Positions 2,897-20,913 of a stretch of DNA of 26,944 nucleotides are shown piece after piece. Made by a program: the position numbers and the translations under genes. Location of the stretch: positions 1 through 26,944 of the forward strand of contig JAUWOV010000012.1 in the NCBI GenBank assembly GCA_030611945.1. The letters are read 5' to 3'. Source of the stretch: a bacterium (lineage in GTDB: Bacteria > JAHJDO01). Numbering within the stretch: position 1 is the stretch's first letter; every line of letters starts with the position of its first letter. The notes beneath the pieces are model-generated. The model saw only the letters and a program-made list of their open reading frames with translations, was not told the origin of the DNA and did not search any database.

Positions 2897-2927
2897 TATT
2901 ATTTCAAAATTTAAGGGGTGATAAAAT

Positions 2928-5309
2928 ATGAAAAAACTCTCAATATTCTTACTCATATTTTCAATGGTCTTAAGCAGTGTAACTCCTGCTTATAGTCGAC
3001 CAAAAAAAGCAAGCACAGCTACAATTCAAGGACAAGTAACGAATTCAGTAACAAATCAAGCCATATCAGGCGCAACAGTCCGAGCAGGTCGTTATAGAGT
3101 TGCAACAAATGAAAATGGCAATTATATAATAAAAAATATTAGAGTATGGTTCTGGGGAAGAATATATAGAGTAAAAGCATCTGCAAAAGGATATTACGCA
3201 AGTTCCAGATGGATATATGTAAGAAAAGACAAAACATACACCTTAAACTTCAGATTAAGACCAAGAAGACCGCTGATATTAGTTAATATAACTTCTCCTG
3301 AAGATAATTCGTATATAAGAGGGTCAAATTTAGACGTATCAGTCTCATGGCAGGGCAGAGCGGGAATAATAGATTTATATTTAGATGATAGTTTAGCTGG
3401 AAGCTACAGGACATGGCGTTGGTGGCACAGGTCGGGGACTCATACATTCAATATAGATCTTTCAGAGCAACAAGATGGGGAACATAAGCTCAAATCAATT
3501 GCATACAGGTCGCACAGAAGAAAAGGCTACAAAGCAGAGTCCAAAGAGATAACATTTATCTTAGACAATGCCTCCCCTGTAATTTCAGATATATCTCCAA
3601 TAGACAATGCTTTAATTAACGACAACCAGCCAGAGATCTCAGCAGTATTGTCGGATGTCACGAGCGGAATAGATAAAGATACAATTATATTAAAACTTGA
3701 TGATGCAGAAGTAGCTGTAACTTATGATGAGATAACAGGAAAGCTAAGTTACACCCCAGCGATAGCGCTTGTAGATGGAACACATACAATTTCTATTGAA
3801 GTGAAAGACGGGGTAGGAAATGAAGCAAGCGCCACATCAACACTTATAATAGATGCAACACCGCCAGTAATATCAAACATCCAGCCGGAAGATGGTAGTA
3901 CAATTGAAGAAGCAAAACCTGTCATATCAGCAGAATACTCGGATAACCTATCAGGAATAGATGCAAGTTCAGTTAAATTATTATTGGATACTCAGGATGT
4001 AACAGGTAATGCTACTGTAACAGAGACTAGCATAACATATACTCCAGCTCAGGATTTGGAAAGCGGGGAACATACAGCAGGATTAGAAGTCAAAGACATT
4101 GCAGGAAACACAATATCAGAAATATGGACGTGGACAGTAGAGGGAGGAGCAAAGATATTAAATGAAATTCCCAGTAATGACCCGCAGGATCTGGCAGTAG
4201 ATAATAATAGAAACCTGTACATTCTTGAATCAGCGCCCGGAAGAATATACATTTATGATAAAGATGCGGCCTACATAACATATATTCAGCTTGAAGATAT
4301 GTTAAATCCAAAAGGAATAGCGCTGGATAAAGATAATAACCTTTATATAGCAGATACAGGAAACAGCTGTATAAAGAAGCTTAAACTCATAGAGCCGGAT
4401 ATATTTACCTATCAGCTTGACACTGATTTTGGAACAGACGGAGTTGCCGGCGATACGCTCATTAGTCCATGGGGAATAGCAGTTGATGATGATACGAATA
4501 TCTATGTAACAGATAATCAGGCAAATAAGGTGATAGAATTTGATGGACAAGGAAAGTATCTAACAGATTTTGACAGGACAGAAGAAGCGATAAGCGATAC
4601 TGAAATCATAGAACATCCATTCAATAGTCCAAAGGGAATCACAACAACAGGCTACGGGACAATATATGTAGCAGACAGTGGAAACAACCAGATACAGGAA
4701 ACATCAGCTAGCGCTTTAAATGTCATCATAGGTTCTGAGGGAACAGGAGATGGCGAGTTTCAAAATCCTGTAGACGTAGCAGTAAGTCTTTATTACATCT
4801 ATGTTATTGACAATGGAAATTTGAGGGGGCAGAAGTTCCTAACAGAGCCGAGAAAAGAAGATGACCCGCAGAGGCCGTTTGAAGCAAAATTTGACAATTT
4901 GAATCTAAATAATCTGACAGCAATTGCAATAGATAATGACCTGAAGAGAGAAATAATTTACATAGCGGATAATGGAAATAACAGAGTATTAAGAATTGAG
5001 ATACCGATTAAGTCTGCTGAACCTGTTTTGGAAGAGATGAAGACAAAACTTGAAGCTGAAGATATTGACAGCGCAGTTTCATGCGTAAGCATTGATTCGC
5101 AGGAGAAATACAGAGAAGCTTTTAATGTGTTGAAAGACGCAGGCAAGCTGAATGAATTTGCAGAAGATATGAAAAATCTGGAACTTATCTATGTAAGAGG
5201 AGACAGGGCAAAATACAGATTAAAGAGATTAGAAGATGGCGAAGAGATTACATATTACATATATTTCAAGAAAGATGAAAATGGAGAATGGAAGATAGAA
5301 TCATTTTAG
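2928..5309 (+). CDS. Secreted multi-domain protein with Ig-like domains and NHL repeats
   Basis: A 793-residue protein of unknown specific function. Seen in order: a signal peptide (about 1-23, cut near AYS); a carboxypeptidase-regulatory-like domain (about 32-108, GQVTNSVTNQAISGATV); an Ig-like domain (about 116-214); two repeated bacterial Ig-like domains (about 215-310 and 311-405, each opening with PVIS and ending in a VKD-GN turn); a propeller of NHL-type repeats (about 415-692, with repeated LYIADTGN and IYVADSGNN strands); and a C-terminal domain of about 95 residues with charged beta-strands. It is probably exported and binds carbohydrate or protein surfaces, which is inference. An AAGGGGTG site (2913-2920) supports the start. 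It is the first gene of the block between rplK and rplA. Confidence 0.85.
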   Translation: MKKLSIFLLIFSMVLSSVTPAYSRPKKASTATIQGQVTNSVTNQAISGATVRAGRYRVATNENGNYIIKNIRVWFWGRIYRVKASAKGYYASSRWIYVRKDKTYTLNFRLRPRRPLILVNITSPEDNSYIRGSNLDVSVSWQGRAGIIDLYLDDSLAGSYRTWRWWHRSGTHTFNIDLSEQQDGEHKLKSIAYRSHRRKGYKAESKEITFILDNASPVISDISPIDNALINDNQPEISAVLSDVTSGIDKDTIILKLDDAEVAVTYDEITGKLSYTPAIALVDGTHTISIEVKDGVGNEASATSTLIIDATPPVISNIQPEDGSTIEEAKPVISAEYSDNLSGIDASSVKLLLDTQDVTGNATVTETSITYTPAQDLESGEHTAGLEVKDIAGNTISEIWTWTVEGGAKILNEIPSNDPQDLAVDNNRNLYILESAPGRIYIYDKDAAYITYIQLEDMLNPKGIALDKDNNLYIADTGNSCIKKLKLIEPDIFTYQLDTDFGTDGVAGDTLISPWGIAVDDDTNIYVTDNQANKVIEFDGQGKYLTDFDRTEEAISDTEIIEHPFNSPKGITTTGYGTIYVADSGNNQIQETSASALNVIIGSEGTGDGEFQNPVDVAVSLYYIYVIDNGNLRGQKFLTEPRKEDDPQRPFEAKFDNLNLNNLTAIAIDNDLKREIIYIADNGNNRVLRIEIPIKSAEPVLEEMKTKLEAEDIDSAVSCVSIDSQEKYREAFNVLKDAGKLNEFAEDMKNLELIYVRGDRAKYRLKRLEDGEEITYYIYFKKDENGEWKIESF

Positions 5310-5348
5310 GAGAAAGTTTTAGATTAGAAATATAACAGGAGGACGGTT

Positions 5349-5564
5349 ATGGGAGAAAATAAATACACAGCGATAATAAAAAAAGAAGACGATTGGTGGA
5401 TTGGCTGGATAGAAGAGGTACCGGGCGTAAATTGCCAAGGACATACGCATGATGAATTAATGGAAAGTCTTGCTGCAACATTGAAAGAAGCTCTGGAATT
5501 CAATCGACAGGATGCTATCGCGACAGCAAAGCAAAATTATAAAGAAGAACCGGTTTTTGCATGA
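5349..5564 (+). CDS. hicB: HicB-family antitoxin
   Basis: A 71-residue protein with the HicB-like (UPF0150) fold pattern: YTAIIKKEDDWWIGWIEEVPGV followed by QGHTHDELMESLAATLKEAL, close to the family consensus of beta strands, a P-G-C/V turn and a helix. No DNA-binding extension is visible, so autoregulation may be weak or indirect. A strong AGGAGGA site at 5337-5343 drives it. Its stop overlaps the hicA start by 4 bases (ATGA), typical translational coupling of antitoxin and toxin. It would neutralise HicA by covering its active site, as known for the family. Confidence 0.85.
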   Translation: MGENKYTAIIKKEDDWWIGWIEEVPGVNCQGHTHDELMESLAATLKEALEFNRQDAIATAKQNYKEEPVFA

Positions 5565-5749
5565 AAAGGAAGGAGTTCTTGAAATATTTGAGACAGCACA
5601 GTTGTTCGTTAATCCGTGAAGGAGCGAACCATTCTTGGTGGGGCAGCGTCCTGGAAAATAAACGTTCATCTGTCCCGCGACATACGGAAATAAATGATAA
5701 TTTGGCAAATAAAATCTGCAAGGATTTAGGTATACCCAAAATAAAATAA
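5561..5749 (+). CDS. hicA: HicA-family mRNA interferase toxin
   Basis: A 62-residue dsRBD-like small protein. It has the family N-terminus (MKRKEFLKYLRQHSC), the predicted catalytic histidine in GANHSWW (H24), and the conserved VPRHTEINDNLANKICKDLG segment (38-57). HicA toxins cleave mRNA and tmRNA and are held in check by HicB. All landmarks look intact, so it is likely active. The order is antitoxin first. Its place inside a ribosomal protein operon is very unusual and would tie toxin transcription to ribosome synthesis. Confidence 0.88.
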   Translation: MKRKEFLKYLRQHSCSLIREGANHSWWGSVLENKRSSVPRHTEINDNLANKICKDLGIPKIK

Positions 5750-5761
5750 GAGGGATTTCTT

Positions 5762-6337
5762 ATGTATAAATTAGTAAAAATAATTTTGGTTTTTGCTTTA
5801 ATATTTTTAACCACAACCTCTGCTTTCTGCTTCGGCTTTGGATGGACATGGATGGGTAAGTATGAACCAATGAAAGTGGTTGATGCTGATACAGGAAAGC
5901 CGATAGAGGGAGCGTGGGTAGCAGTTAGGTGGCATAAAATACCATTTTGGGAGTATCTAAATGTTGGAGGTCCGAATTCGGTAACGACAAAGATTATATC
6001 ATTGGAAACAGATGAAAAAGGAGAATTTCATCCGTTTGAGAGCAAGTGGAAGTATGGAAGTGAAGTATGGATATATGCTTGGGAAAAAGGTTACAAGTTG
6101 GGAGTAGCAAGTCCGCCATATAGAGAACATGATGATGAACGAGGTAAATGGAAGGAAGAAGTATCTCCTATCATCAAGCTCAAGAAACTGCCTGAGGGAT
6201 ATGAAGGGACAGGGGAATATGTCAGCATGATGAATACTACAGAAAGTTTTTTTGAAGGTACAAAGTGGATAAAGTTTGTAACAAAAGAAAGAGATAGAGC
6301 TTCTAAGTTATGGCGTAAAAAAATAGAGGATAAATAA
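5762..6337 (+). CDS. Secreted protein with a carboxypeptidase-regulatory-like domain
   Basis: A 191-residue protein with an N-terminal signal peptide (about 1-23, a hydrophobic stretch ending TSAFC). A beta-sandwich domain of the carboxypeptidase regulatory type follows (VVDADTGKPIEGAWVAVRW near 38-56, then TDEKGEF near 82-88 and a GYKLG turn). The C-terminal third is charged and rich in Lys and Glu, probably helical. The cysteine near the cleavage site is not in a clear lipobox. A GAGGGA site lies just before the start. Function is unknown. It starts 12 bp after hicA and ends 2 bp before the next gene, so it is probably co-translated with the phospholipase C-like protein. Confidence 0.75.
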   Translation: MYKLVKIILVFALIFLTTTSAFCFGFGWTWMGKYEPMKVVDADTGKPIEGAWVAVRWHKIPFWEYLNVGGPNSVTTKIISLETDEKGEFHPFESKWKYGSEVWIYAWEKGYKLGVASPPYREHDDERGKWKEEVSPIIKLKKLPEGYEGTGEYVSMMNTTESFFEGTKWIKFVTKERDRASKLWRKKIEDK

Positions 6338-6339
6338 AT

Positions 6340-8907
6340 ATGGACAAAAGAAAAAACAGACTATTGGCTTGTACAATTGGAATATGCCTGTCGTTAATGT
6401 TTTCTACTAATCTGTTTGCATATGAAAAAGAAACACATAGAGAAATAACAAAAGAGGTGGTTAAAAATGTCGAATCAAAAATAAGCAATGTCCTCACTAA
6501 TGAATGGAAACTTGAGGAAGGAACAAATTTTTCTTTCCGTATCATTAAGGGAAAGTCTGGCAATTACAGGCAGTTGATAACTCAAGGCAGTTGGGAGGAG
6601 GATGTTCCTTTTACTAACTGTCCAAAGCATTTTTACGACCCTACAACAGGAAATGGGGTGCTCGGTTTTACTGATGCGATATCAAGGGGTGTTGATAGTG
6701 TTGGAACTGTCTGGAGTTACAAGGATTCGAAAAACTATTTGTACAGCGCATTAACAGCAGAAAAGGGAAAAGACAGGTTAGCCAATTTCGGCAGGATGTT
6801 TTACTCATTGGGCAGAACCATCCATCTTTTAGAGGACATGGCTGTGCCATCACATGTGAGAAATGATTCGCATATGTATCTTCCAGGTACAGAATGGCTA
6901 TTTCGTCAAAGAGATATGTATGAAAAGTGGGCAGAGAAAGCAGCAAGAGATGGAATCTTAAAAACAACTAGCTGTGGAGCTGTAGCAATTTCAAATGATG
7001 ACATAAAAGACCTGTGGGATGAAACAAGAGACTATGGAGAAGCAGGAGATAATACATACATAGGAATGGGGCTTTCGGAATACACCAACCACTATTTTCT
7101 AAGTAGAGATACAATATTTAGAGAATATACATATCCAGAGAGAGCTGGATGTGGCGAGAAATTGGTAAGTGTAGAAGCAGAAGATGAGAAGATTGATATA
7201 ATCAAGTATCTTTACACAGCGGAAGTAGACCCGCTTGCAAAAGAGTCATTATTTTACAAATATCGAGAAAAGTACGATTTATATCAGCTTGACGATGTTT
7301 CATATCAGCTTGATGGGAATTGCCATAAGGCATATTCAGATAAACTAATTCCAAGAGCAGTTGGCTACTCTGCTGGTCTGTTGGATCACTTTTTCAGAGG
7401 CAAGCTGGATGTTACAAAGAAGGAAGCGAAAAGAAAAAGCGCTGATAACAGGAATTATGATGTAACGCTTAAGATAAAGAACAACTCTGGCGAAGCGATG
7501 AGCGGCGGGAGTTTTGTGCTGATGTATAAAAAGAATGAGACTGAATATGTGGAATTGGGAAGCACAAGTCTCTTGGAACTTCTTGAGAGCGGAGAAACAC
7601 TTGATGCAGGAGCGGAGACAAAGGAATGGAAGATAAACGGCGCAACAATAGAAATGCCGGATTACGCAAAGAAGGAGTTTAAACAAGGTGATTTCAGCAA
7701 GATAGAATTTACCCTTGCGTATAAAGGAAAACTTGGCGAAGAATCAAGCGTAACAATCGGAAAAGTTTTTGATGAGATGGAAGAAATCCCACCCTACTAC
7801 TTCCACGTCCAGCTTTCCCCATCATATGTGGAAACTGGGAGTCCTGTATCACAAACAGAAACATTCACAATAAAAGTTCAGTGTTATAACTATGGAACAT
7901 CTGTTAATCCCCCACCTGAAGGGACAGTGAATAAGCTTTCTGGCACAGAAAGTTATGTAAAGAATGATGATGGAGAATGGGAGAAGGAGAAGATAAATCC
8001 AGATTGTCAGGCGCCAGAAGCAGGTTGGGCAAAAAGTAATTATAACGGCGAGGTAAGTTTAGAAATAGTTGATACATCAGGTTATGAATTATATTTTAGT
8101 GGAGAAAACTTAGAAACGTTAGAGCTGGCAGATGGAGCAAGTTCAATATCAGGAGTGGTAATAAAGGCAGAAGATGGAAATATAGGAGATAATCATCTAT
8201 TCTTGATCATCTCCGCATCAGATGGAGCAGGAAACGGTAATGGTGCTTTGATGGTAAATCCAGTAATAGTCACTGCTCATGGCATAGCAGGCAGATATCA
8301 GAAAAGAGCTTTTCATGATACTCATATTACAGATCCAGATGATTGGAATGTAGGGGCATATAATGAGGCGTGGCATAGACTTGTGTATGGGTATTGGAAG
8401 TCTGGTACATGGCACCCAGGGTGGATTGATGCATCTTGGACAACACATGTGTATCATGCTAAAAGTTTTTTCTGGTCAAAAATAGGTGATTACAGCCATG
8501 GGCATGTTTATGTACAGATATGGGCACAAAAGTGTCAGGCAGCAATCAACCTCTCGGGGTATGCTCCTGATGAGATTGAGCATGCATGGATGAGAGCGGC
8601 AGTTACGATTGATGATGACCGTATTAATCATCTTATAGGCAGCATAAAAAATAAAACAACAGGAGAGGTGGGAGTAGTGCAAGTAATAGATGATACCCAT
8701 AAGTATCTAATTTGGGAAAATATACCGTTTTCTGATTTTGGGTCGGAAGTAACGTATGCGTTTGAACCGTCTATTAACACTGAAGGAGTGGGAGGGGCGA
8801 TGCAATTAAAGCCTGAGTACGATCCCATATTTAAACCTAATTCTATATCTGGAGTTAAGATGACAGGTAGTCCACAGATTTTATTTATTCCAAAAACGCC
8901 GGAATAA
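6340..8907 (+). CDS. Secreted zinc-dependent phospholipase C-like multi-domain protein
   Basis: An 855-residue protein with a signal peptide (about 1-27, ending NLFA). Residues about 28-355 match the zinc phospholipase C / S1-P1 nuclease helical fold. Candidate metal ligands in order are H33 (ETHREIT), E86/E87/D88 (GSWEEDVPF), H97 (KHFYDP), H162 and D166 (IHLLEDM), H172 (VPSHVRND), H251 and H350. An Ig-like region follows (about 368-480), then another beta-rich region, and a histidine- and tryptophan-rich C-terminal part (about 640-855) that I do not recognise. Hydrolysis of phospholipids or nucleic acids outside the cell is inferred. An AGAGGA site at 6325-6330 lies inside the previous gene, which suggests coupling. 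Confidence 0.8.
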   Translation: MDKRKNRLLACTIGICLSLMFSTNLFAYEKETHREITKEVVKNVESKISNVLTNEWKLEEGTNFSFRIIKGKSGNYRQLITQGSWEEDVPFTNCPKHFYDPTTGNGVLGFTDAISRGVDSVGTVWSYKDSKNYLYSALTAEKGKDRLANFGRMFYSLGRTIHLLEDMAVPSHVRNDSHMYLPGTEWLFRQRDMYEKWAEKAARDGILKTTSCGAVAISNDDIKDLWDETRDYGEAGDNTYIGMGLSEYTNHYFLSRDTIFREYTYPERAGCGEKLVSVEAEDEKIDIIKYLYTAEVDPLAKESLFYKYREKYDLYQLDDVSYQLDGNCHKAYSDKLIPRAVGYSAGLLDHFFRGKLDVTKKEAKRKSADNRNYDVTLKIKNNSGEAMSGGSFVLMYKKNETEYVELGSTSLLELLESGETLDAGAETKEWKINGATIEMPDYAKKEFKQGDFSKIEFTLAYKGKLGEESSVTIGKVFDEMEEIPPYYFHVQLSPSYVETGSPVSQTETFTIKVQCYNYGTSVNPPPEGTVNKLSGTESYVKNDDGEWEKEKINPDCQAPEAGWAKSNYNGEVSLEIVDTSGYELYFSGENLETLELADGASSISGVVIKAEDGNIGDNHLFLIISASDGAGNGNGALMVNPVIVTAHGIAGRYQKRAFHDTHITDPDDWNVGAYNEAWHRLVYGYWKSGTWHPGWIDASWTTHVYHAKSFFWSKIGDYSHGHVYVQIWAQKCQAAINLSGYAPDEIEHAWMRAAVTIDDDRINHLIGSIKNKTTGEVGVVQVIDDTHKYLIWENIPFSDFGSEVTYAFEPSINTEGVGGAMQLKPEYDPIFKPNSISGVKMTGSPQILFIPKTPE

Positions 8908-8908
8908 A

Positions 8909-9019
8909 ATGCTAAAAACAATCATAAAACCAGAACAAAAAGTACTGAAGGAATTACTTGAAGATACCGTTTCAAGAGCGTATTATGCGTCGCTTCAGGC
9001 TAAAGAAGTTTCTAGATAA
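8909..9019 (+). pseudogene. 36-codon remnant resembling a HEPN-domain fragment
   Basis: A short frame starting 1 bp after the previous stop, encoding 36 residues. The segment LEDTVSRAYYASLQAKEV resembles the SRAYYAxFHAAKxLL helix of HEPN-domain toxins and nucleotidyltransferase partners, but the protein stops where that domain should continue. It has no clear ribosome-binding site. It could be the broken edge of a former toxin-antitoxin gene, or a chance frame. It lies at the right border of the cargo block, 18 bp before rplA. Confidence 0.4.
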
Positions 9020-9037
9020 ACAAAAGGGAACGCCAGA

Positions 9038-9748
9038 ATGAAAAAGAGAGGTAAGAGGTATCAGGCAGTTGAAAAATTAATAGATAAAGAAAAAGTGTAT
9101 GACATTTCTCAGGCAGTTGAATTGCTGAAAGAGTCGGCTAGCGCGAAGTTTGATGAAACGGTTAATATGGCTTTTCATCTGGGAGTAGATCCTAAAAATG
9201 CTGACCAGCAGGTAAGAGGCGTTATAAATTTGCCTCATGGAACAGGCAAGACTGTAAGGATTGCGGCTTTTGCGAAGGGCGATAATGCTGATAAAGCCAA
9301 GAAAGCAGGAGCTGATTTTGTCGGGGATAAGGATCTGATGGATAAAATAAGCAAAGGCTGGCTTGATTTTGATGTTGTGGTTGCAACACCTGATATGATG
9401 AAAGAGATAAGTAAGTTAGGCAAGATACTTGGACCGCGCGGATTAATGCCTAATCCAAAGAGCGGGACAGTCGCTTCGGATATAGCGGGAGCTGTAACAG
9501 AGATTAAAGCAGGGAAGGTAGAGTACAGGCTGGACAAAGGAGCGAATTTGCACATAGTAGTAGGAAAAGCTTCGTTCTCCAAAGAGCAATTATCAGATAA
9601 TATATTGGCAGTTGTAAAAGAAATTACTCAGGCAAAACCTGCGTCTTGTAAAGGACAATATGTAAAGAATCTTGCTATTAGTTCCACAATGGGACCAGCA
9701 ATAAGACTGAATGTAAATGTTAAGGCACAAAGTGGCAAAGGCACATAG
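9038..9748 (+). CDS. rplA: 50S ribosomal protein L1
   Basis: A 236-residue protein of normal length with hallmarks [18 protein letters not shown] (about 68-85) and [18 protein letters not shown] (about 127-144). L1 forms the mobile L1 stalk that handles exiting tRNA, and in many bacteria it represses translation of its own operon by binding near rplK. The start is supported by AAGGGA about 8 bases upstream. The gene is separated from rplK by the cargo block, so repression of rplA by L1 binding ahead of rplK would have to pass through the inserted genes. Confidence 0.98.
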
Positions 9749-9765
9749 GCACAAAGTATAAAAAG

Positions 9766-9793
9766 TCCCCCTTTGAAGGGGGATTCAGGGGGA
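9766..9793 (+). repeat. C/G-rich inverted repeat ahead of rplJ with two alternative pairings
   Basis: TCCCCCTT (9766-9773) can pair with AAGGGGGA (9776-9783) next to it, or its first seven bases can pair with AGGGGGA (9787-9793) further on. The distal arm is the only ribosome-binding-like sequence before the rplJ ATG at 9797. The shape, a C-run followed by two G-runs, resembles dispersed short repeats seen in many bacterial genomes. I find no second copy in this window. An 11-bp direct repeat, AGGCACAAAGT, lies just upstream at 9723-9733 and 9747-9757. Confidence 0.6.
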
Positions 9794-9796
9794 TGT

Positions 9797-10354
9797 ATGA
9801 ATAAAGATGAAAAGGCAAAAAGGGTAAAGGAATTAGCTGGGCAATTCCAGAAGAGTCCTAATAATATGATATTTACAGATTATAAAGGCTTAACAGTTAA
9901 AGAGATATCAGGCTTGCGGGAAACATTAAATGAAAAAGGAATATTATATAAGGTTATCAAAAATAGACTTGCATGTTTGGCATTAAAAGAGAGTGGACTG
10001 AAGGGTTTGGATCATTTTTTTACAGGTCCTACAGCTATTGCTTTTGCGCAAAATGATCCAACTGTTCCGGCAAAAGCGCTGTCAAAATGTTCAAAAGAAT
10101 ATGATTGTCTTAATATAAAAGGAGGGTTTATTGATGAACTCGTTTTTTCTGCAGAACAGGTTAAAGAGATCGCTTTAATTCCTTCCAGAGGTCAATTACT
10201 TATGCAGTTAGTGGGACAGCTTCAGGCTCCAATAGGTAATTTTGTATATTGTATTAGATCAATATTAGCCAGGTTTGTGTATGTGATTCAAGCTGTAATA
10301 GATAATAAAACTAATTCAAAGACAGAGGAGGTAGATAATGGTAACAAAAGCTAA
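9797..10354 (+). CDS. rplJ: 50S ribosomal protein L10
   Basis: A 185-residue protein. The N-terminal rRNA-binding part contains [19 protein letters not shown] and [15 protein letters not shown]. The C-terminal helix that carries L7/L12 dimers is around 160-180. I chose the ATG at 9797 because the only earlier start in frame is a TTG at 9773 inside the C/G-rich repeat, which would add non-homologous residues. The ribosome-binding sequence AGGGGG is part of that repeat. The 3' end overlaps rplL by 17 bases, consistent with coupled translation of the stalk proteins. Confidence 0.95.
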
Positions 10355-10805
10355 AAAAGCAACAGAAGAAAAGGCAACAGAAGAACCAGTAAAGAAAATT
10401 CCTAAGGTTGAGGCAAAAAAGCCGGACAAAGCAGGCATTATAGATCTGGTAAAGAATATGACAGTTTTGGAGTTATCTAATCTTGTAAAAGATCTGGAAA
10501 AGGAATTTGGTGTTACTGCTGCTCCGGTTGGTATTGGAGCTGTCTCTCCAGGAGCAGCATCTGCTTCTGCTGCTCCAGATGAAGAGAAGGAGAAGACAAC
10601 GTTTACTGTCTTATTAAAGCAGTTTGGGGATAAGAAGATTCAGGTAATAAAGGAAGTAAGAGCTCTTACAGAGTTAGGACTTAAGGAGGCGAAAGACCTT
10701 GTAGAGAGCGCGCCAAAGCCTATTAAGGAAAATATTTCAAAGGAGGAAGCTGAGGAGCTTAAGGGAAAATTAGAAGCTGTTGGCGCTGTTGTAGAATTGC
10801 AGTAA
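10338..10805 (+). CDS. rplL: 50S ribosomal protein L7/L12 with N-terminal extension
   Basis: A 155-residue protein. The dimerisation domain begins near residue 32 ([26 protein letters not shown]), followed by an Ala-rich hinge and the C-terminal factor-binding domain ([21 protein letters not shown] and [17 protein letters not shown]). L12 recruits EF-Tu and EF-G to the ribosome. About 30 Lys/Glu/Ala-rich residues precede the usual start (family length is about 120-130). The ribosome-binding site GAGGAGG at 10325-10331 clearly serves the ATG at 10338, so the extension is probably real. Confidence 0.97.
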
Positions 10806-10905: not shown

Positions 10906-13900
10906 ATGTCTCAACGTGTATCTAATTCTTCTGGTAGAGATGTATATTGTCAGATCTCTTCTATTATGAATGTTCCTGATTTAATGTATGTTCAAAGGGC
11001 GCCATATGCAGAATTTCTTCAGAGGAATGTATCCCCTGCGACTCGTAAAAATCAGGGACTTCAAGCAGTATTTAACGAATTTTTCCCAATAATAGACGAA
11101 AAGGGAAAATTCTGCCTGGAATTTTCAAGTTATAGTATTGGTGATCCTAAACACAATGTAGCTGAATGCAAGAGGTGTGGAGCAACATATGCTGCTACTC
11201 TTAAGTTGAGGATGAAACTGACTATTAATGAAAAGGATTCCACCAAAGCCTGCATAGCAAGAGAGCAGGAGGTGTATTTGCTGGATTTACCTCTTATGAC
11301 AGAACAGGGGACATTTGTCATCAATGGAGCAGAGAGAGTTATTGTTAGTCAGTTACATAGATCTCCGGGGCTTTATTGTCAAAAAAAAGAAGTTTCTAAT
11401 GAGAAAGAGCTTTATTCAGCGCGTCTTATTCCGAACAGAGGGGTCTGGCTTGAGTTTGAATTTGATGCTAATGACATACTTTATGTCAGCATGGACCGTA
11501 AAAGAAAGATGCTTGCTACAGTTTTGCTTAGAGCGTTTGGATATGTGACAGATGAAGAGATTATCAGGCTTTTCTATATATGCAAGGCGAAAATAATTAC
11601 AAATAAGACAGTGTCTGATGATATTGTTGATGAAATTCTGGCAGAGGATGTAGTTGATGAAAATACAGGAGAGATCATAGCAGAGAGTAAAGAAAGAATA
11701 ACTCCTTCTATTGCTAAGAAGATATTAACATTCAAGATTAAAAGCATAAACATAATAGAAATGTCCGGCAAAGATATTTCTATTATAAATACACTTGCAA
11801 AAGATCATAGAAAATCAAAAGAAGAAGCTTTTGTGGAAATGTATAAAAGATTGCGTCCAAGTGATCACTTTACAATAGATGCTGCTGAGAGTTATTTTAA
11901 GGACATTATTTATAATCCTAGAAGATACGACCTTTCACAAGTTGGTAGATATAAGTTAAATCAGAAGTTAGGTCTTAATTATTCTTTGGACAAGACCACT
12001 TTAGATAAAGAAGACATAGTAGGAACAATCCATTATTTACTTAAGGCAAAGCACAATGCGGAAGAAGAGGATGATATTGACCATCTTTGGAATAGAAGGG
12101 TTAGAACTGTTGGGGAATTACTGCAGACTCAGTTTAGAATAGGGCTTGCTAAGCTGGAAAGATCTGTAAAAGAGAGAATAGCGTTTCAAGAACCAGATAC
12201 TGTTATGCCTCATAATCTAATTAATGGACGGTTAATTTCTTCAGCAGTAAATGATTTTTTTGCGCGTGGGCAGCTATCGCAATTTATGGATCAAACAAAT
12301 CCTTTATCAGAACTTACTCATAAAAGAAGGATAAGCGCCTTAGGTCCCGGAGGACTTACAAGAGAGAGAGCAGGATTTGAGGTCAGGGATGTTCATCCAA
12401 CTCACTATGGACGTATTTGTCCTATAGAAACTCCTGAGGGGCCTAATATTGGGTTGATAGCTTCTCTTGCTACATATACCAAGATTAATAAGCTGGGATT
12501 GTTAGAGACACCTGCAAGGAAAGTTGTCAATGGTAGAGTGACCAATGAAGTGGTTTGGCTGTCTGCTGATCTTGGTGACAAAAATATTGTTGCTCAGGCT
12601 AACGCAAAGATTGATAAAAAAGGGCATTTTATTGACGATGAGGTATCAGTTAGAGTTAAAGGCGATTTTCGTAAAGTCTCTCCAAAAGATGTAAATTTTG
12701 TGGATGTCTCGCCTAATCAAATAATTAGTGTAGCTGCAGGATTAATCCCTTTTTTGGAGCATGATGATGCAAACAGAGCTCTTATGGGATCCAATATGCA
12801 GAGACAGGCAGTTCCTCTTCTAAAACCGGAAGCTCCTTTGATTGGTACAGGAATGGAGAGTATTGTTGCCAAAGGGTCGGGATCTGCTGTTGCTGCTAAG
12901 AGAGCGGGGATTGTGGAATCGGTGTGTTCTGATAAGATAATTATTCGTCAGGAAGAAAACGAGGATGATTTTGATGAATACATATTAAGAAAATTTGAAA
13001 AATCAAATCAAAACACCTGTATTAATCAGCGACCGATTGTTAAAGAAGAAGAAAGAGTTTCTAAAGATGATATCATAGCTGAAGGATCTGCTACAGATAA
13101 TAGGGAATTAGCTTTGGGACAAAATGTGTTGGTAGCCTTTATGCCATGGAGAGGATATAATTTTGAAGACGCTATTGTCATTAGCGAAAAACTGGTTAAG
13201 GATGATGTTTTGTCCTCTATTCATATTGAGGAATTGGAAGTAGAAGCCAGGGAAACAAAACTTGGGAAAGAAGAGATCACTCGTGATATACCTAATGTTA
13301 GCGAAGGAGAACTGGCTAACCTGGATGAACATGGAATTGTTCAAATTGGGACACATGTGAAGCCGGGAGACGTATTAGTAGGGAAAGTGACTCCTAAAAG
13401 TGAAACAGGTCTGACATCTGAAGAAAAATTATTGATAGCAATTTTTGGAGAAAAGGCTGGTGATGTGCTTAACACATCTTTAACTGTTCCTGTTGGTATG
13501 GAGGGGATAGTTACAGATGTTAGAATATTGTCAAGACGCGATAAAGACGATATGGATGGGTTGCAGAAAAAGGTTATTGAGGATATTGAGTGTAAAATTG
13601 AGGAAGAAATCAGAAGAACTAAGAATAATCTAATTGACAGACTTGGGAAGCATATTATAGGGAAAGTAATAGCTGGGGATCTGATTAACAAGAGTGGGAA
13701 AGTCTTTCTCTCTGCTAACCAGAAAGTTAAAAGGGAAGATATAGGTAATATACCTCTTAAGTATCTGAGAAACCTTAGACTTAAAAGCACCGACATCAAT
13801 AGAAAAATTCTTACATTAATTGAGAGCTTTGAGGGAAAACTAAAGTCTCTTAGTAAAGAGAGGAGATTAGAAATAGAAAAGATCAAGAAGGGTGATGAAC

Positions 13901-16900
13901 TTTCCCCAGGTGTAATAAAACGTATAATGGTTTATATAGGCAATAAGAGAAAAATTTCAAAGGGAGATAAGGTTTCCGGCAGGCATGGCAATAAAGGTAT
14001 TATTGCAAAAATATTGCCGGAGGAAGATATGCCTTATTTATCAGATGGAACACCAATGGGAATTTTGCTTAATCCTTTAGGCGTTCCTTCAAGAATGAAT
14101 GCGGGTCAGATTTTAGAAACTCATCTTGGCTGGGCAGCTAAGGTTTTGGGTATAAAGATTGCGACACCTGTTTTTAATGGAATTAGAGAGGCAGAAATAA
14201 AACAGCTTCTCAAAAAGGCAGGGCTGCCTGAAGATGGTCAGGATACTTTGTATGACGGGATGACAGGAGAACCATTTGATAATAAGGTAACTGTTGGTTA
14301 TATTTACATGATGAAATTATCACATCTTGTGGATGATAAGATGCATGCTCGCGCAACAGGTCCGTATTCATTAGTTACCCAGCAGCCTTTGGGAGGAAAG
14401 GCTCAGTTTGGAGGACAGCGTTTTGGTGAGATGGAGGTATGGGCATTAGAAGCATATGGTGCTGCTCATACTTTACAGGAATTACTTACAGTGAAAAGTG
14501 ACGATGTTGTTGGCAGAATGCGGATATATGAAAGCATTGTAAAGGGGGAGAATACAGTTCAATCCGGCATACCAGAGTCTTTCAATGTTTTATTGAAGGA
14601 ATTGCAAGGCTTAGGTTTGGGAGTTAAGCTTATAAGGGCTAAAAGGCCTTGTGGATTTTCTGATCTTGTTTTTCCAAAATGGCAGCCTGACAGTTCAGAG
14701 GAATTTCAAAGTAGAACGGGTATGATTGAAGCTATATCTATTAATTTGGTTTCCTCTGAAGAGATTAGGCTATGGTCTAAAGGAGAAGTTAGAAAGCCGG
14801 AAACTATAAATTATAGAACATTCAGGCCGGAAAAAGACGGGCTTTTTTGCGAAAGGATCTTTGGACCAACAAAGGATTGGGAATGTTACTGTGGTAAGTA
14901 TAAGAGAATCAGACATAAAGGGGTAATTTGTGATAGATGCGGTGTGGAAGTTACACAATCTAAGGTAAGACGTCAACGTATGGGGCATATAAGTCTTGCT
15001 TCACCAGTAGCTCATGTTTGGCTTTTTAAGGTTGTCCCAAGTTATATGAGTACATTGCTTGATTTGAGTTTGAAGAATATAGAAAAGATTCTCTATTATG
15101 AGAGTTATGTAGTGCTGGGTGCTGGAAAGACCTCTTTAGGGAAGTATCAGCTTTTAAGTGATGAGGAGTATGAGAAATACAGAGAAGAATTCGGCAATGG
15201 ATTTCATGCAGAGATGGGAGCTTCAGCTATCAAAAAAATGTTGGAAGACATGGATTTGGATAAACTTGCAGAGAGCTTGAAGGAGAAAGAAAGGAAAACA
15301 TCGTTTAAACAATCAAAGAAAAAAATTAATAAAAGGTTAAGGGTTGTTGAAGCCTTTCGTACTTCCGGTAGTAGACCTGAATGGATGATTATGGATGTTA
15401 TACCTGTTATACCTCCTGACTTAAGACCTTTAGTGCCTTTGGATGGAGGGCGCTTTGCGACCTCTGATTTGAATGACTTATATCGGAGAGTTATTAACCG
15501 AAATAACAGGCTAAAGAGGCTTCTGGAACTAGGCGCGCCTAGTATAATTATTAGAAATGAAAAAAGGATGCTACAGGAAGCGGTTGATGCTCTATTTGAT
15601 AATGGCAGACATGGCAGGACAGTAGTTGGACATGGTAATCGTCCGCTTAAATCCCTTAGCAACATGCTGGGTGGAAAACAGGGTAGATTCAGACAGAATC
15701 TTTTGGGAAAACGCGTTGATTATTCAGGAAGATCAGTTATTGTTGTGGATCCAAAATTGAAGCTGCATCAATGCGGTTTACCTAAGCGCATGGCATTAGA
15801 ACTGTTTGAGCCGTTTGTGATCAGGAAATTAAGAGAGAAGGGAATAATAAATACTATAAAGAATGCGAAGAAGATGCTGGAAAAAGCAGAAGCAGAAATA
15901 TGGGATATTCTTGATGAGGTAATAAGGAATCGTTTCGTTTTACTTAACAGGGCTCCAACACTACATAGACTTGGCATACAGGCATTTCAGCCTGTTCTTA
16001 TTGAAGGTAAGGCAATAGGAGTCCATCCACTGGTTTGCGCTGCGTTTAATGCAGATTTTGACGGAGACCAAATGGCAGTCCATGTGCCTCTTACACCAGA
16101 GGCTGAGTTAGAAGCAGAGTTTTTAATGTTATCAAGTAAAAATATTTTTTCTCCTGCCAGCGGAGAAGCAATAATGGCGCCGAGACAGGAGATCGTATTA
16201 GGATGCTATTACTTAACAAAAGAAGAGCAGAGCAATAAGAAAGAAGAAAAAATATTTTCATCATCATACGAAGCAATTGCTTCGTATGATTCTAAAAAAG
16301 TGAAATTGCATTCTGTGATAAAGATAAGGATAAATGGAGAACTGATAGAGACAACAGTAGGAAGAATTCTGTTTAATGAAATTTTGCCTCATTCATTACT
16401 ATTTGTAAATAGGGTGTTTGATAAAGACAAATTGGGTGGCTTAATTGAAGAGTGTTTCAAAAAAGAAGGGCATCATCAGACAGTGTTAATGTTAGATAGA
16501 ATTAAGACATTAGGATTTGAGATGGCTACCAGAGGCGGTATTTCCATCTGCATTGATAATATGGTTATTCCTGCAATAAAGGGCAAGTTGTTAGAGCAAG
16601 GGAAACGAGAGGCTGGTATTGTTGAGGAGCAGTATAGGAAAGGCGTTATTACTGATGTAGAGAGATATAATAAGGTAATTGATGTGTGGACGCATATTAC
16701 GGATAAGGTCTCAGACGCTATGTTTAAAGAAATGGAAAAGGATCCTTTTAATCCTGTTCTAATGATGCTGCTTTCAGGCGCAAGAGGCAGCAGTCAGCAG
16801 ATAAGGCAATTAGCAGGCATGCGGGGGCTAATGGCTAAACCTAAGAAGAATATTACAGGAGAGATAGGAGAGATCATAGAGACTCCTATAATGACAAATT

Positions 16901-18771
16901 TTCGTGAGGGACTGAGTATGTTGGAATATTTTATCTCAACTCATGGGGCTAGAAAAGGTTTAGCAGATACAGCTTTGAAAACCGCAGAAGCAGGATACTT
17001 AACCAGGAGGTTGGTTGATGTAGCGCAGGATGTGGTTGTTACAAGCGAAGATTGCAGAACACTTAACGGCATAAGCGTTACAGCAATTAAAGAAGGAGAC
17101 AGAACTATTGAATCACTTAAAGACAGGCTTGCAGGGCGAACAGCATTGGAAGATATAAAAATACCCTTGTTGGATAATATAATCGTTAAAGCAGGCGAAG
17201 AGATTACAGACGAAATGGCAGAAGTCATAGAAGAAGCGGGAGTAGAAAAAGCAATGATAAGGTCTGTTCTAACATGTGAGCAGGAGAAGGGGATTTGTGC
17301 CAAATGTTACGGCAGAGATCTTACAACAAAGAAGCGAGTTAGAAATGGAGAAGCTGTAGGAATTGTTGCAGCTCAGTCCATAGGAGAGCCTGGAACTCAG
17401 CTTACTCTAAGAACTTTTCATATTGGAGGAACAGCCAGTAGAATAATTGGTGCCTCAAAAATAGCAGCCATTAATGATGGCATTGTTAAATTTCACGGAA
17501 TAAGAACAGTGGTGGATAAGAATAATAATGTAGTAGTGATTAACAGGAATGGAGAAATAGCAGTAGAAAATGCAGAGGAAAGGGAACTGGAAAGATGTAA
17601 TATGCCATTAGGCAGTATACTTAAGGTCAAAGATAATGGTGTAGTGAAAAGAAAAACTGTACTAGCTGAGTGGGATCCATATATCTTGCCCATAATTTCT
17701 ATAAAGAGCGGAGAAGTAAAATTTGTTGATATAATTGAAGGTCTTACAATGAAGACCGAAGTAGATAAGATAACAGGAAAAAAAGAAAGGATTATTACAG
17801 ATTACAGAAGCGCGGGTATGCATACACAAATATTGATACAAGACAAGAATGGAGAGGTGTTAAATTATCATAGTATTCCAAATGGAGCGTATCTAACAGT
17901 TAAAGAAGGAGAGCAAGTTTTGAAAGGAGATTTGTTAGCAAAGGCTACAAGAGAAAGAAGTAAAACCAGAGATATTACAGGAGGATTACCAAGAATTGCT
18001 GAACTCTTTGAAGCGAGGAGACCTAAGAATCCTGCTATAGTAACTGAGATAGACGGAATAGTGGATGAACCTATTGGCCTTAAGAAGAATATGCGTAGAA
18101 TAACTGTGACAGCAGATAATGGTGAGGAGAAAGAATATCTTGTTTCTCACGGTAAGCACTTGATTGTTTATAAGGGTGATAGGGTAAAAGCAGGTGATCA
18201 GCTTACAGATGGGTCTATGATTCTTGATGAAATATTGAGAATAGAGGGGGATAGGAGATTACAGGAATATTTATTAAATGAAATTCAAGAAGTTTATCGG
18301 TTGCAAGGTGTCCATATCAATGATAAGCATATAGGATTAATTGTGAGACAGATGCTTAAAAAGGTCAGCATAGAAGACAGTGGAGATACTGAGCTTTTAG
18401 CTGGAGAACAAGTAGACAAAGTTGTTTTTAAGAAAGAGAATGAGAGAGTGGTTGCGAAAAATAAAAAACCTGCTCGTGCAATACCAGTTCTTCAGGGTAT
18501 TACAAGAGCATCTATAAATAGAGAAAGTTTTATATCAGCTGCTTCATTTCAGGAAACCACGCGAGTTCTGACCAAAGCTACTGTTTTTTCTAAGGTAGAT
18601 AGATTATCCGGATTAAAAGAAAATGTAATAATCGGACGTTTGATTCCAGCTGGCACAGGGTGGGCTGACTATAGGAATATAACATTAACAGGGACCAAGT
18701 TATCCGATAAAAAGGATGTGGAAGAGGCCAAAGATAAAGATAATAGTAGTGTAGAAGAGGTAAAAGCTTAG
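10906..18771 (+). CDS. rpoBC: RNA polymerase beta and beta' subunits fused in one protein
   Basis: A single 2621-residue frame. Residues 1 to about 1243 are RpoB: the rifampicin-site segment runs from Q456 ([20 protein letters not shown]) and has the wild-type residues Q459, D462, S468, H472, R475 and S477. The end matches the normal RpoB tail ([19 protein letters not shown], 1225-1243). A connector of about 25-30 residues leads into RpoC, clear from about 1273 ([15 protein letters not shown], then [19 protein letters not shown]). RpoC has zinc site 1 (C1327, C1329, C1342, C1345), the catalytic NADFDGDQ with D1717, D1719 and D1721, and zinc site 2 (C2050, C2124, C2131, C2134). No internal Shine-Dalgarno precedes M1273. 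Start by GAAGGGGG at 10891-10898. It is preceded by the rplL-rpoB hairpin and followed by rpsL. Confidence 0.97.
16263..16290 (+). repeat. Perfect 28-bp palindrome inside the RpoC part
   Basis: ATCATACGAAGCAA (16263-16276) is followed directly by its exact reverse complement TTGCTTCGTATGAT (16277-16290). As RNA it could fold into a 12-bp stem with an AATT loop. It encodes the SYEAIASYD stretch of RpoC, a region that varies between bacteria. I see no other copy in the window. Confidence 0.9.
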
Positions 18772-18785
18772 GAAAGGAAATAAAT

Positions 18786-19157
18786 ATGCCAAGATTGTCA
18801 CAGTTAATAAAGAAAAACAGGAAGAAGAGTATAAAGAAAACATCTACTCCTGCCTTAAAAGGTTCTCCACAAAAGCGGGGAGTATGCACCAGGGTGTATA
18901 CAGTAACTCCCAAAAAGCCAAATTCAGCATTAAGAAAGGTGGCTAGAGTGAGATTGACGAGTGGCGTGGAGGTTACAGCTTATATTCCTGGAATAGGACA
19001 TAATCTACAGGAGCATTCAATTGTTTTAATTAGAGGTGGAAGCGTTGCAGATCTTCCAGGTGTTAGGTACCATATAGTTAGAGGAGCTTTGGATACTACA
19101 GGGGTTACAGATAGAAAGAAAAGCAGGTCTAAATATGGTACAAAAAAAGCAAAATAA
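18786..19157 (+). CDS. rpsL: 30S ribosomal protein S12
   Basis: A 123-residue protein of normal length. [17 protein letters not shown] (41-57) carries the unmodified lysines whose mutation gives streptomycin resistance, and D89 in ADLPGVRYH is the aspartate that is methylthiolated in many bacteria. S12 lies at the decoding centre. It starts 14 bp after rpoBC with a GGAAAGGA site, so str genes follow the polymerase gene directly, as in many bacteria. Confidence 0.98.
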
Positions 19158-19169
19158 AGGAGACATGTA

Positions 19170-19637
19170 ATGCCTAGAAAGGGGAGAGTTACTAAAAGGA
19201 CAATAACATCAGATCCTAAATACAATGACCAAATAGTAGCTAAATTTGTAAATTGTATTATGAGAAGAGGCAAAAAAAGTTTGGCTGAATCTATATTTTA
19301 TGATTCTTTAGATATTATAAATAAGAGTACAAAAAAAGATTCTTTGGAAGTGTTCAAGCAGGCTCTTGATAATGTGAAGCCGGTTTTAGAGGTTAAGTCC
19401 AAAAGAATTGGAGGCGCTACGTATCAAGTGCCTATAGAAGTTAGCTCTGATAGGAGAACAAGTTTGGCTATGCGCTGGATTATAAATCATGCTAAGGCAA
19501 GAAAGGGCAAAAGCATGGGAGAAAAATTGGCGCAGGAAATTATAGATGCATCTAAAGGTGAAGGAACTTCCGTAAAAAAGAAAGAAGACGTCCATAAAAT
19601 GGCAGAAGCTAACAAGGCTTTTGCGCATTATAGATAA
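19170..19637 (+). CDS. rpsG: 30S ribosomal protein S7, complete copy
   Basis: A 155-residue protein of normal length starting [12 protein letters not shown], with the conserved [16 protein letters not shown] (about 77-92) and [20 protein letters not shown] (about 100-119) segments. It begins 12 bp after rpsL with an AAAGGAGA site. It is a primary 16S rRNA binder and, in E. coli, the translational repressor of the str operon. The next gene should be fusA (EF-G), but tuf follows instead. Its last 171 bases recur at the start of the window. Confidence 0.98.
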
Positions 19638-19713: not shown

Positions 19714-20913
19714 ATGGCAAAAGAGAAATTTGAGAGAACAAAGCCGCACATAAACGTAGGAACAATAGGGCATGTAGATCATGGGAAGACAACATTAACA
19801 TCAGCAATAACAAAGATATTAAGCAAGAAAGGATTAGCATCAGCAAAGGAATTTGATGAGATAGATAATGCGCCAGAGGAGCAAGAAAGAGGAGTAACGA
19901 TAAATGTACATCATGCAGAATATGAGACAGAGAACAGGCACTATGCACATGTAGATTGTCCGGGACATGCAGATTACATAAAGAATATGATAACAGGCGC
20001 AGCTCAGATGGACGGAGCAGTGCTGGTAGTAAGCGCAGCAGATGGTCCAATGCCGCAGACAAGAGAGCACATATTATTGGCAAGACAGGTAGGAGTGCCA
20101 TCACTGGTAGTATTTTTGAATAAGGTTGACCAAGTAGATGATAAGGAACTATTGGAATTAGTGGAACTGGAAGTAAGAGAATTATTAACGAAGTATGAAT
20201 TTCCCGGAGACGACATACCGGTAATAATGGGCTCGGCATTAGCAGCAATGGATTGCGGATGCGGGAAAGAAGACTGCGAGAAATGCAAACCTGTTCTGGA
20301 ATTACTAAAACAGATGGACGAATATATGCCGTTGCCAAAAAGAGAGATAGATAAACCGTTTCTGATGGCAGTAGAAGATGTATTCACAATAACAGGAAGA
20401 GGAACAGTAGGAACAGGAAGAGTAGAGAGAGGAGTAGTAAAGGTGGGAGAGAGTGTAGAGATAATAGGGTTGAGAGAGACCAAGAAGACAGTAGTAACAG
20501 GAGTAGAGATGTTCAGGAAGCTGCTGGATCAGGGACAAGCAGGAGATAATGTAGGATTATTGTTAAGAGGAATAGAGAGAACGGATATAGAGAGAGGACA
20601 AGTATTGGCAGCGCCCGGGACAATAACACCGCATACACAATTTAAGGCAAAAGTGTACGTATTGAAGAAAGAAGAAGGAGGAAGGCATACACCATTCTTC
20701 AAGGGATACAGACCGCAGTTTTATTTTAGGACAACAGATGTAACAGGGACTGCAAAGTTAGCTCAAGGAGTAGAGATGGTAATGCCAGGAGACAATGTAG
20801 ATTTAGAGATAGAGTTGATAGCGCCGATAGCAATGGAAGACGGATTAAGATTTGCGATAAGAGAAGGAGGAAGGACAGTAGGCGCTGGTGTTGTATCTAA
20901 AATTATTAAGTGA
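19714..20913 (+). CDS. tuf: Elongation factor Tu, copy 2
   Basis: A 399-residue EF-Tu, 391 residues identical to copy 1. Differences include A68 (E in copy 1), NKVD in place of NKAD in the G4 motif (V is the more usual residue), M172, M205 and L282. All G motifs and the four-cysteine loop are present. The ribosome-binding site AAGGAGGAT is identical to that of copy 1. Isoleucine codons are ATA in 22 of 24 cases; the two exceptions are the last two. It lies between rpsG and rpsJ, the classical tufA position at the str-S10 junction. Confidence 0.98.

Follow-up and report, generated by a model that had tools for sequence, protein, structure and literature searches.

The window analysed here, a stretch of 26,944 nt, is an entire contig (C103) of a 1.66-Mb genome that is 91% complete and consists of 119 contigs. 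It carries a fused rpoBC gene on the forward strand (10906..18771, +), a single stop-free ORF which begins with an ATG at 10906, ends with a stop codon at 18769-18771, has zero internal stops and encodes a protein of 2621 aa and 294 kDa that is covered over its full length by RpoB and RpoC models. Beta and beta', the two largest subunits of RNA polymerase and ordinarily separate proteins, are here encoded as one chain. According to Pfam, rplA, rplJ and rplL lie directly upstream (9038..10805, +), in the canonical rplAJL-rpoBC order that is kept in the congeners, while rpsL and rpsG lie directly downstream (18786..19637, +). Two EF-Tu genes were identified (247-1446 and 19714-20913), the second one right after rpsG in the usual place of fusA; no fusA was seen within the window. 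Contig breaks at tuf in the congeners are in line with its being a repeat. Between rplK and rplA, which are separated by a gap of about 17-21 nt in three congeners, the window harbors an insertion of approximately 6.1 kb (2897-9020). On the operon strand the insertion contains a 793-aa secreted-looking protein with Ig/NHL repeats (2928-5309), a 71-aa ORF with weak Pfam matches below the cut-off (5349-5564) and two unassigned, secreted-looking ORFs of 191 and 855 aa; a 62-aa HicA-like ORF (5561-5749; HicA 25.6 bits, just below the cut-off) stands beside the 71-aa ORF.

Analysis of the fused protein revealed an RpoB part comprising residues 1-1244 (10906..14637, +), with a TIGR02013 match at residues 12-1241 and Rpb2 domain 7 ending at residue 1243, a connector of residues about 1245-1275 (14638..14730, +), and an RpoC part comprising residues 1276-2621 (14731..18768, +), which matched TIGR02386 and Rpb1 domains 1-5. 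The Pfam and NCBIfam boundaries, with RpoB domains reaching residue 1243 and RpoC domains beginning at 1274-1277, agree with the unbroken frame and the connector at about 1244-1272 that an earlier note on this DNA had described. A motif search located in the RpoB part the Rif region (460-475), GYNFEDAI (750-757), GRHGNKG (1025-1031) and another motif at 1163-1181, and in the RpoC part the N-terminal zinc site CxCGKYK...CDRCGVE (C1327..C1345; 14884..14949, +), the catalytic NADFDGDQM (residues 1715-1723; 16048..16074, +), the trigger loop / bridge helix and the second zinc site (C2050..C2134). The Cys columns of the N-terminal zinc site were invariant in an alignment of 21 fused proteins. On either side of the junction all hallmark domains are complete and the catalytic, rifampicin-region and zinc motifs are preserved, and the same note was right that every catalytic and zinc-binding hallmark had been kept.

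The genome, at 91% completeness, gave one match and no second copy of rpoB or rpoC; when the DNA of the gene was matched to itself, a minus-strand hit (L002) proved to be an internal palindrome and was discarded as a second copy. The RpoC coding part contains a perfect 26-nt palindrome, TCATACGAAGCAATTGCTTCGTATGA, at 16264-16289, which folds to a 12-bp hairpin (z -4.9) and is unique in the genome. Within the genus, RpoB diverges fastest at residues about 880-995 (13543-13890), a segment that overlaps the region where many homologue matches break (about 880/995) and is probably a lineage-variable insert.

The window's genus, of which five genomes were available, is the sole one sampled for its phylum (phylum A). 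The rpoBC junction was uninterrupted in four of the five, namely the window genome (G000) and the separate assemblies G002, G003 and G004, while the fifth genome (G001, 62% complete) yielded no match. A query of 238 residues spanning the junction was then compared with 385 genomes spread over bacterial families. Fusions were found in 14 of the 366 surveyed genomes with a match. Ten of these lie outside the window's genus (G210, G340, G254, G117, G097, G381, G042, G187, G069 and G045), one of them being of the Helicobacter type, and all ten stop-free spanning matches were confirmed as single ORFs from their DNA. Open frames of 2600-2900 aa occurring in many unrelated genomes were rejected as fusions because stops lie between rpoB and rpoC; in a second batch of such loci the DNA showed one or more stops in 16 of 20, and the anchors were not found in L228 and L233-L235. 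Since the large open frames contained stops in all loci with recognisable anchors, only stop-free spanning matches were counted.

The fusion was present in 7/7 genomes of phylum B in a whole-phylum search (including G117, G254 and G381), in 7/7 readable genomes, of nine, of phylum C (including L103/G210, L034/G340, L037 and G069), in 3/3 readable genomes, of six, of phylum D (G097, G396, G397) and in 2/2 genomes of phylum E (G042, G187). No stop-free junction was seen among the 44 genomes of the G231 phylum, 38 of which had a match, and in that phylum each of the nine loci with large open frames that were read contained one or two stops in frame. As far as the genomes are readable, the fusion thus appears to be fixed in five small uncultured phyla. 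Members of phylum C that carry names are 'Nitrospirota bacterium M_MetaBat.229' (L103), CSMAG_454 (L034) and CSMAG_2252 (L037). Two deposited names appear to be wrong: M_MetaBat.229, deposited as 'Nitrospirota', belongs to the fused phylum C, and Centralia_MAG_561 (L033), deposited as 'Proteobacteria', groups with FCPU426.

Phylogenetic trees were constructed with RpoB+RpoC themselves as the markers, using FastTree (103 taxa) and IQ-TREE with LG+F+G4 (65 taxa, 2393 columns). The window's genus and phylum B grouped with a support of 100, inside a group that also holds phylum C, phylum D, Omnitrophota, the G231/G384 lineages and G028/G280. In AU tests a single fused clade of A+B+C was compatible with the data (p 0.45 under LG; p 0.27 under LG+C10 PMSF with 40 taxa), the addition of D was rejected (p 0.006 and 0.004) and that of E strongly rejected (1e-11). 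The resolution of the trees is limited owing to long branches (L151, L160) and to phylum C, which the mixture model leaves unresolved. The full support for A+B argues that phylum B shares its origin with the window's genus, phylum C possibly shares that origin as well, and the AU tests indicate separate fusions in D and E. These phylogenies point to a minimum of two or three origins in addition to the one in Helicobacteraceae, and on this reading the sample would hold four or more fused lineages, namely A+B(+C), D, E and that of the Helicobacter type. The published fusions of Wolbachia and of Ca. Adlerbacteria, a lineage of the Patescibacteria, stand outside the tree. The suggestion that the window carries an independent fusion therefore holds as regards Helicobacter and Wolbachia but not in the sense of a private event, being common to the genus and its sister phylum.

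A different history, which concerns only the past of the protein and not what it is, would place a single ancient fusion at the base of the Omnitrophota-side clade (phyla A-D) with later splitting in Omnitrophota, the G231 phylum and G028/G280. We consider it improbable, at odds of about one to four, even though the LG tree interleaves the fused A+B, C and D with split groups and, on that tree, one gain and two losses take the same number of steps as three gains. Re-splitting would need a new stop, a new start and a new ribosome site, no partial intermediates were seen, and monophyly of A+B+C alone fits the data (AU p 0.45 and 0.27). Were the ancient fusion true, several phyla would have kept a single-chain polymerase throughout, and both fusion and fission of the core polymerase would be possible at deep time scales.

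In the split relatives the RpoB tail past FNVLxKEL has a median of 16.5 residues and the RpoC head before the first conserved tryptophan a median of 33; from FNVLxKEL to that tryptophan the window has 56 codons and the fused genomes 39-59. Since tail and head of split proteins add up to about 50, the connector consists mostly of two ordinary subunit tails joined, and the idea of a newly acquired spacer is not upheld. Many split genomes carry the two genes in the same reading frame, and the rpoB stop is all that keeps the open frames apart; examples are G028, G013, G058, G047, G024, several Omnitrophota and FCPU426 loci, and further L033, L035, L036, L042, L043, L049, L050, L089, L102, L006, L007, L009 and others. 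Judging from their reading frames, such loci would be one substitution away from a fusion, which makes loss of the stop codon the likely origin, plausibly each time.

In an ancestor shared with at least the neighbouring phylum, the rpoB stop would have been lost with rpoC close behind and in frame. What had been the C-terminal tail of beta and the N-terminal head of beta', plus a short spacer if there was one, would then have become a flexible connector, and the start site of rpoC would have been dispensable. The fused chain would be expected to fold like two separate subunits and to assemble with alpha, omega and sigma into a bacterial RNA polymerase of the ordinary kind. As a consequence, beta and beta' would be supplied in equal amounts and assemble together, with no need to initiate translation a second time, and a benefit from the 1:1 stoichiometry is plausible.

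Alignment within the genus gave identities to the window protein of 92% for G002 and G004 and of 88-89% for G003, which is present as two contig pieces; the two complete congener proteins align with it end to end. The connector has the same length in the four species, with no indel and no stop, while the flanking segments differ at a dS of 0.15-0.66. Pooled pN/pS was 0.47 for the connector (32 codons), 0.17 for the RpoB segment and 0.07 for the RpoC segment. The connector thus appears to evolve fast yet under constraint, and this ratio, together with the lack of indels and stops between species, is what would be expected of a linker that is translated and under weak constraint. AF2 models of the junction were poor (mean pLDDT 40.2 with 21 sequences and 53.5 with 114) and the connector was of low confidence or disordered in them; it is probably disordered, lying between the beta C-terminal strand and the beta' N-terminal strand. 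No solved chain of fused length was present among the 60 best PDB sequence matches. A terminator-like hairpin at 14635 in the connector was dropped as a candidate, being absent in the congeners.

With a probability of roughly 0.88 we read the window gene as encoding a single beta-beta' chain, since the connector is constrained and conserves no internal start preceded by a Shine-Dalgarno sequence. An rpoC start codon with a Shine-Dalgarno was present in 66 of 74 split relatives, a count that favours split loci as the best-matching start was picked, while none at a usable spacing was found in the junction of the four genus members. That RpoC is also, or mainly, made separately from a start within the connector of the continuous ORF is suggested by an ATG at 14722 of the window, 17 codons before the RpoC tryptophan anchor, and by a conserved GAGGA/GGAGGA at about 14698. 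The ATG, however, is ACG in three congeners, the two elements are about 20 nt apart, and a second start would leave synthesis of the fused chain unblocked; with the difference between the genus and its split relatives, this makes separate RpoC very unlikely in the window genome. The GAGGA could be a relic of an old ribosome site. In a distant fused relative (L151, G069) a GTG with AGGAG 5 nt upstream was found at the position of the RpoC start, and there the fused and a separate RpoC are possibly both made.

A slightly smaller chance still is given to a fused polypeptide that is cut within the connector into beta and beta'. The connector, fast-evolving and predicted to be disordered, would be accessible to cleavage, but the 21-sequence alignment contains no conserved cleavage-like motif and the connector is not conserved between phyla. 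We know of no report of cleavage of the Helicobacter fused RpoBC. A missed stop or frameshift, conceivable in a metagenome-type assembly of 119 contigs, is practically eliminated as the cause of the continuous ORF by the identical junction in four separately assembled species and by the finding that every readable genome of four further phyla has the fusion.

The window fusion is real, conserved and independent of the two textbook cases. A literature search made mostly without subscription journals and preprints retrieved no description of fused rpoBC in these lineages; the papers found regard it as peculiar to Helicobacteraceae and Wolbachia, with a single mention of Ca. Adlerbacteria besides. 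What matters more is that the fusion recurs and appears to be fixed at the phylum level in small uncultured lineages. Comparison can now test why cells tolerate it, by what route it arises and whether assembly or dosage benefits. As a rare genomic change the fusion is useful for placing these phyla, and the fused genes may be mishandled by annotation pipelines built for two proteins.

A beta-beta' fusion is functional in E. coli, and separation of the subunits in H. pylori renders the cells urea-sensitive. The window protein scored 2846 bits on the Helicobacter-type model (PRK09603/NF007172; cut-off 5372) and 2686 bits on the Wolbachia-type model (PRK14844/NF011417; cut-off 4632), about half of either cut-off, while the positive control G045/L153 reached 5736 bits on the former. 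In the trees and AU tests it grouped with phylum B beside Omnitrophota and not with L153/L180, outside the Helicobacter-type clade. The earlier note's impression that neither known group was involved was thus confirmed, and since the window fusion falls outside both groups it is independent of them.

For Helicobacter and Wolinella, fused rpoBC is documented in a passage of PMC1557499 that cites Zakharova et al., and a passage of PMC7483510, citing Lane and Darst 2010, names Helicobacteraceae and Wolbachia as fused. Like the window gene, the Helicobacter/Wolinella fusion joins the two subunits in a single frame and a single chain with rpoB first; it differs in its phylum, its length (approximately 2890 aa versus 2621 aa), its unrelated connector and its separate origin on the tree. 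The Wolbachia fusion is likewise a single beta-beta' chain but alphaproteobacterial, and the window protein scores low on its model. Ca. Adlerbacteria (PMC11515920) also has a fused beta-beta' in an uncultured bacterium and is set beside the window gene by description only. A recombinant M. bovis RNA polymerase with beta and beta' joined by the 9-residue linker LARHGGSGA has been used functionally and structurally (PMC5837556); it shares the short tether from the beta C-terminus to the beta' N-terminus and is a usable, if artificial, enzyme, so that tethering over a short distance is sterically and mechanically acceptable. The fusions of phyla B-E have the same architecture as that of the window and a connector of similar length, B being the closest, C perhaps of the same origin, and D and E separate. 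The window fusion would work like those of Helicobacter, Wolbachia and the engineered mycobacterial enzyme, as a separate evolutionary instance.
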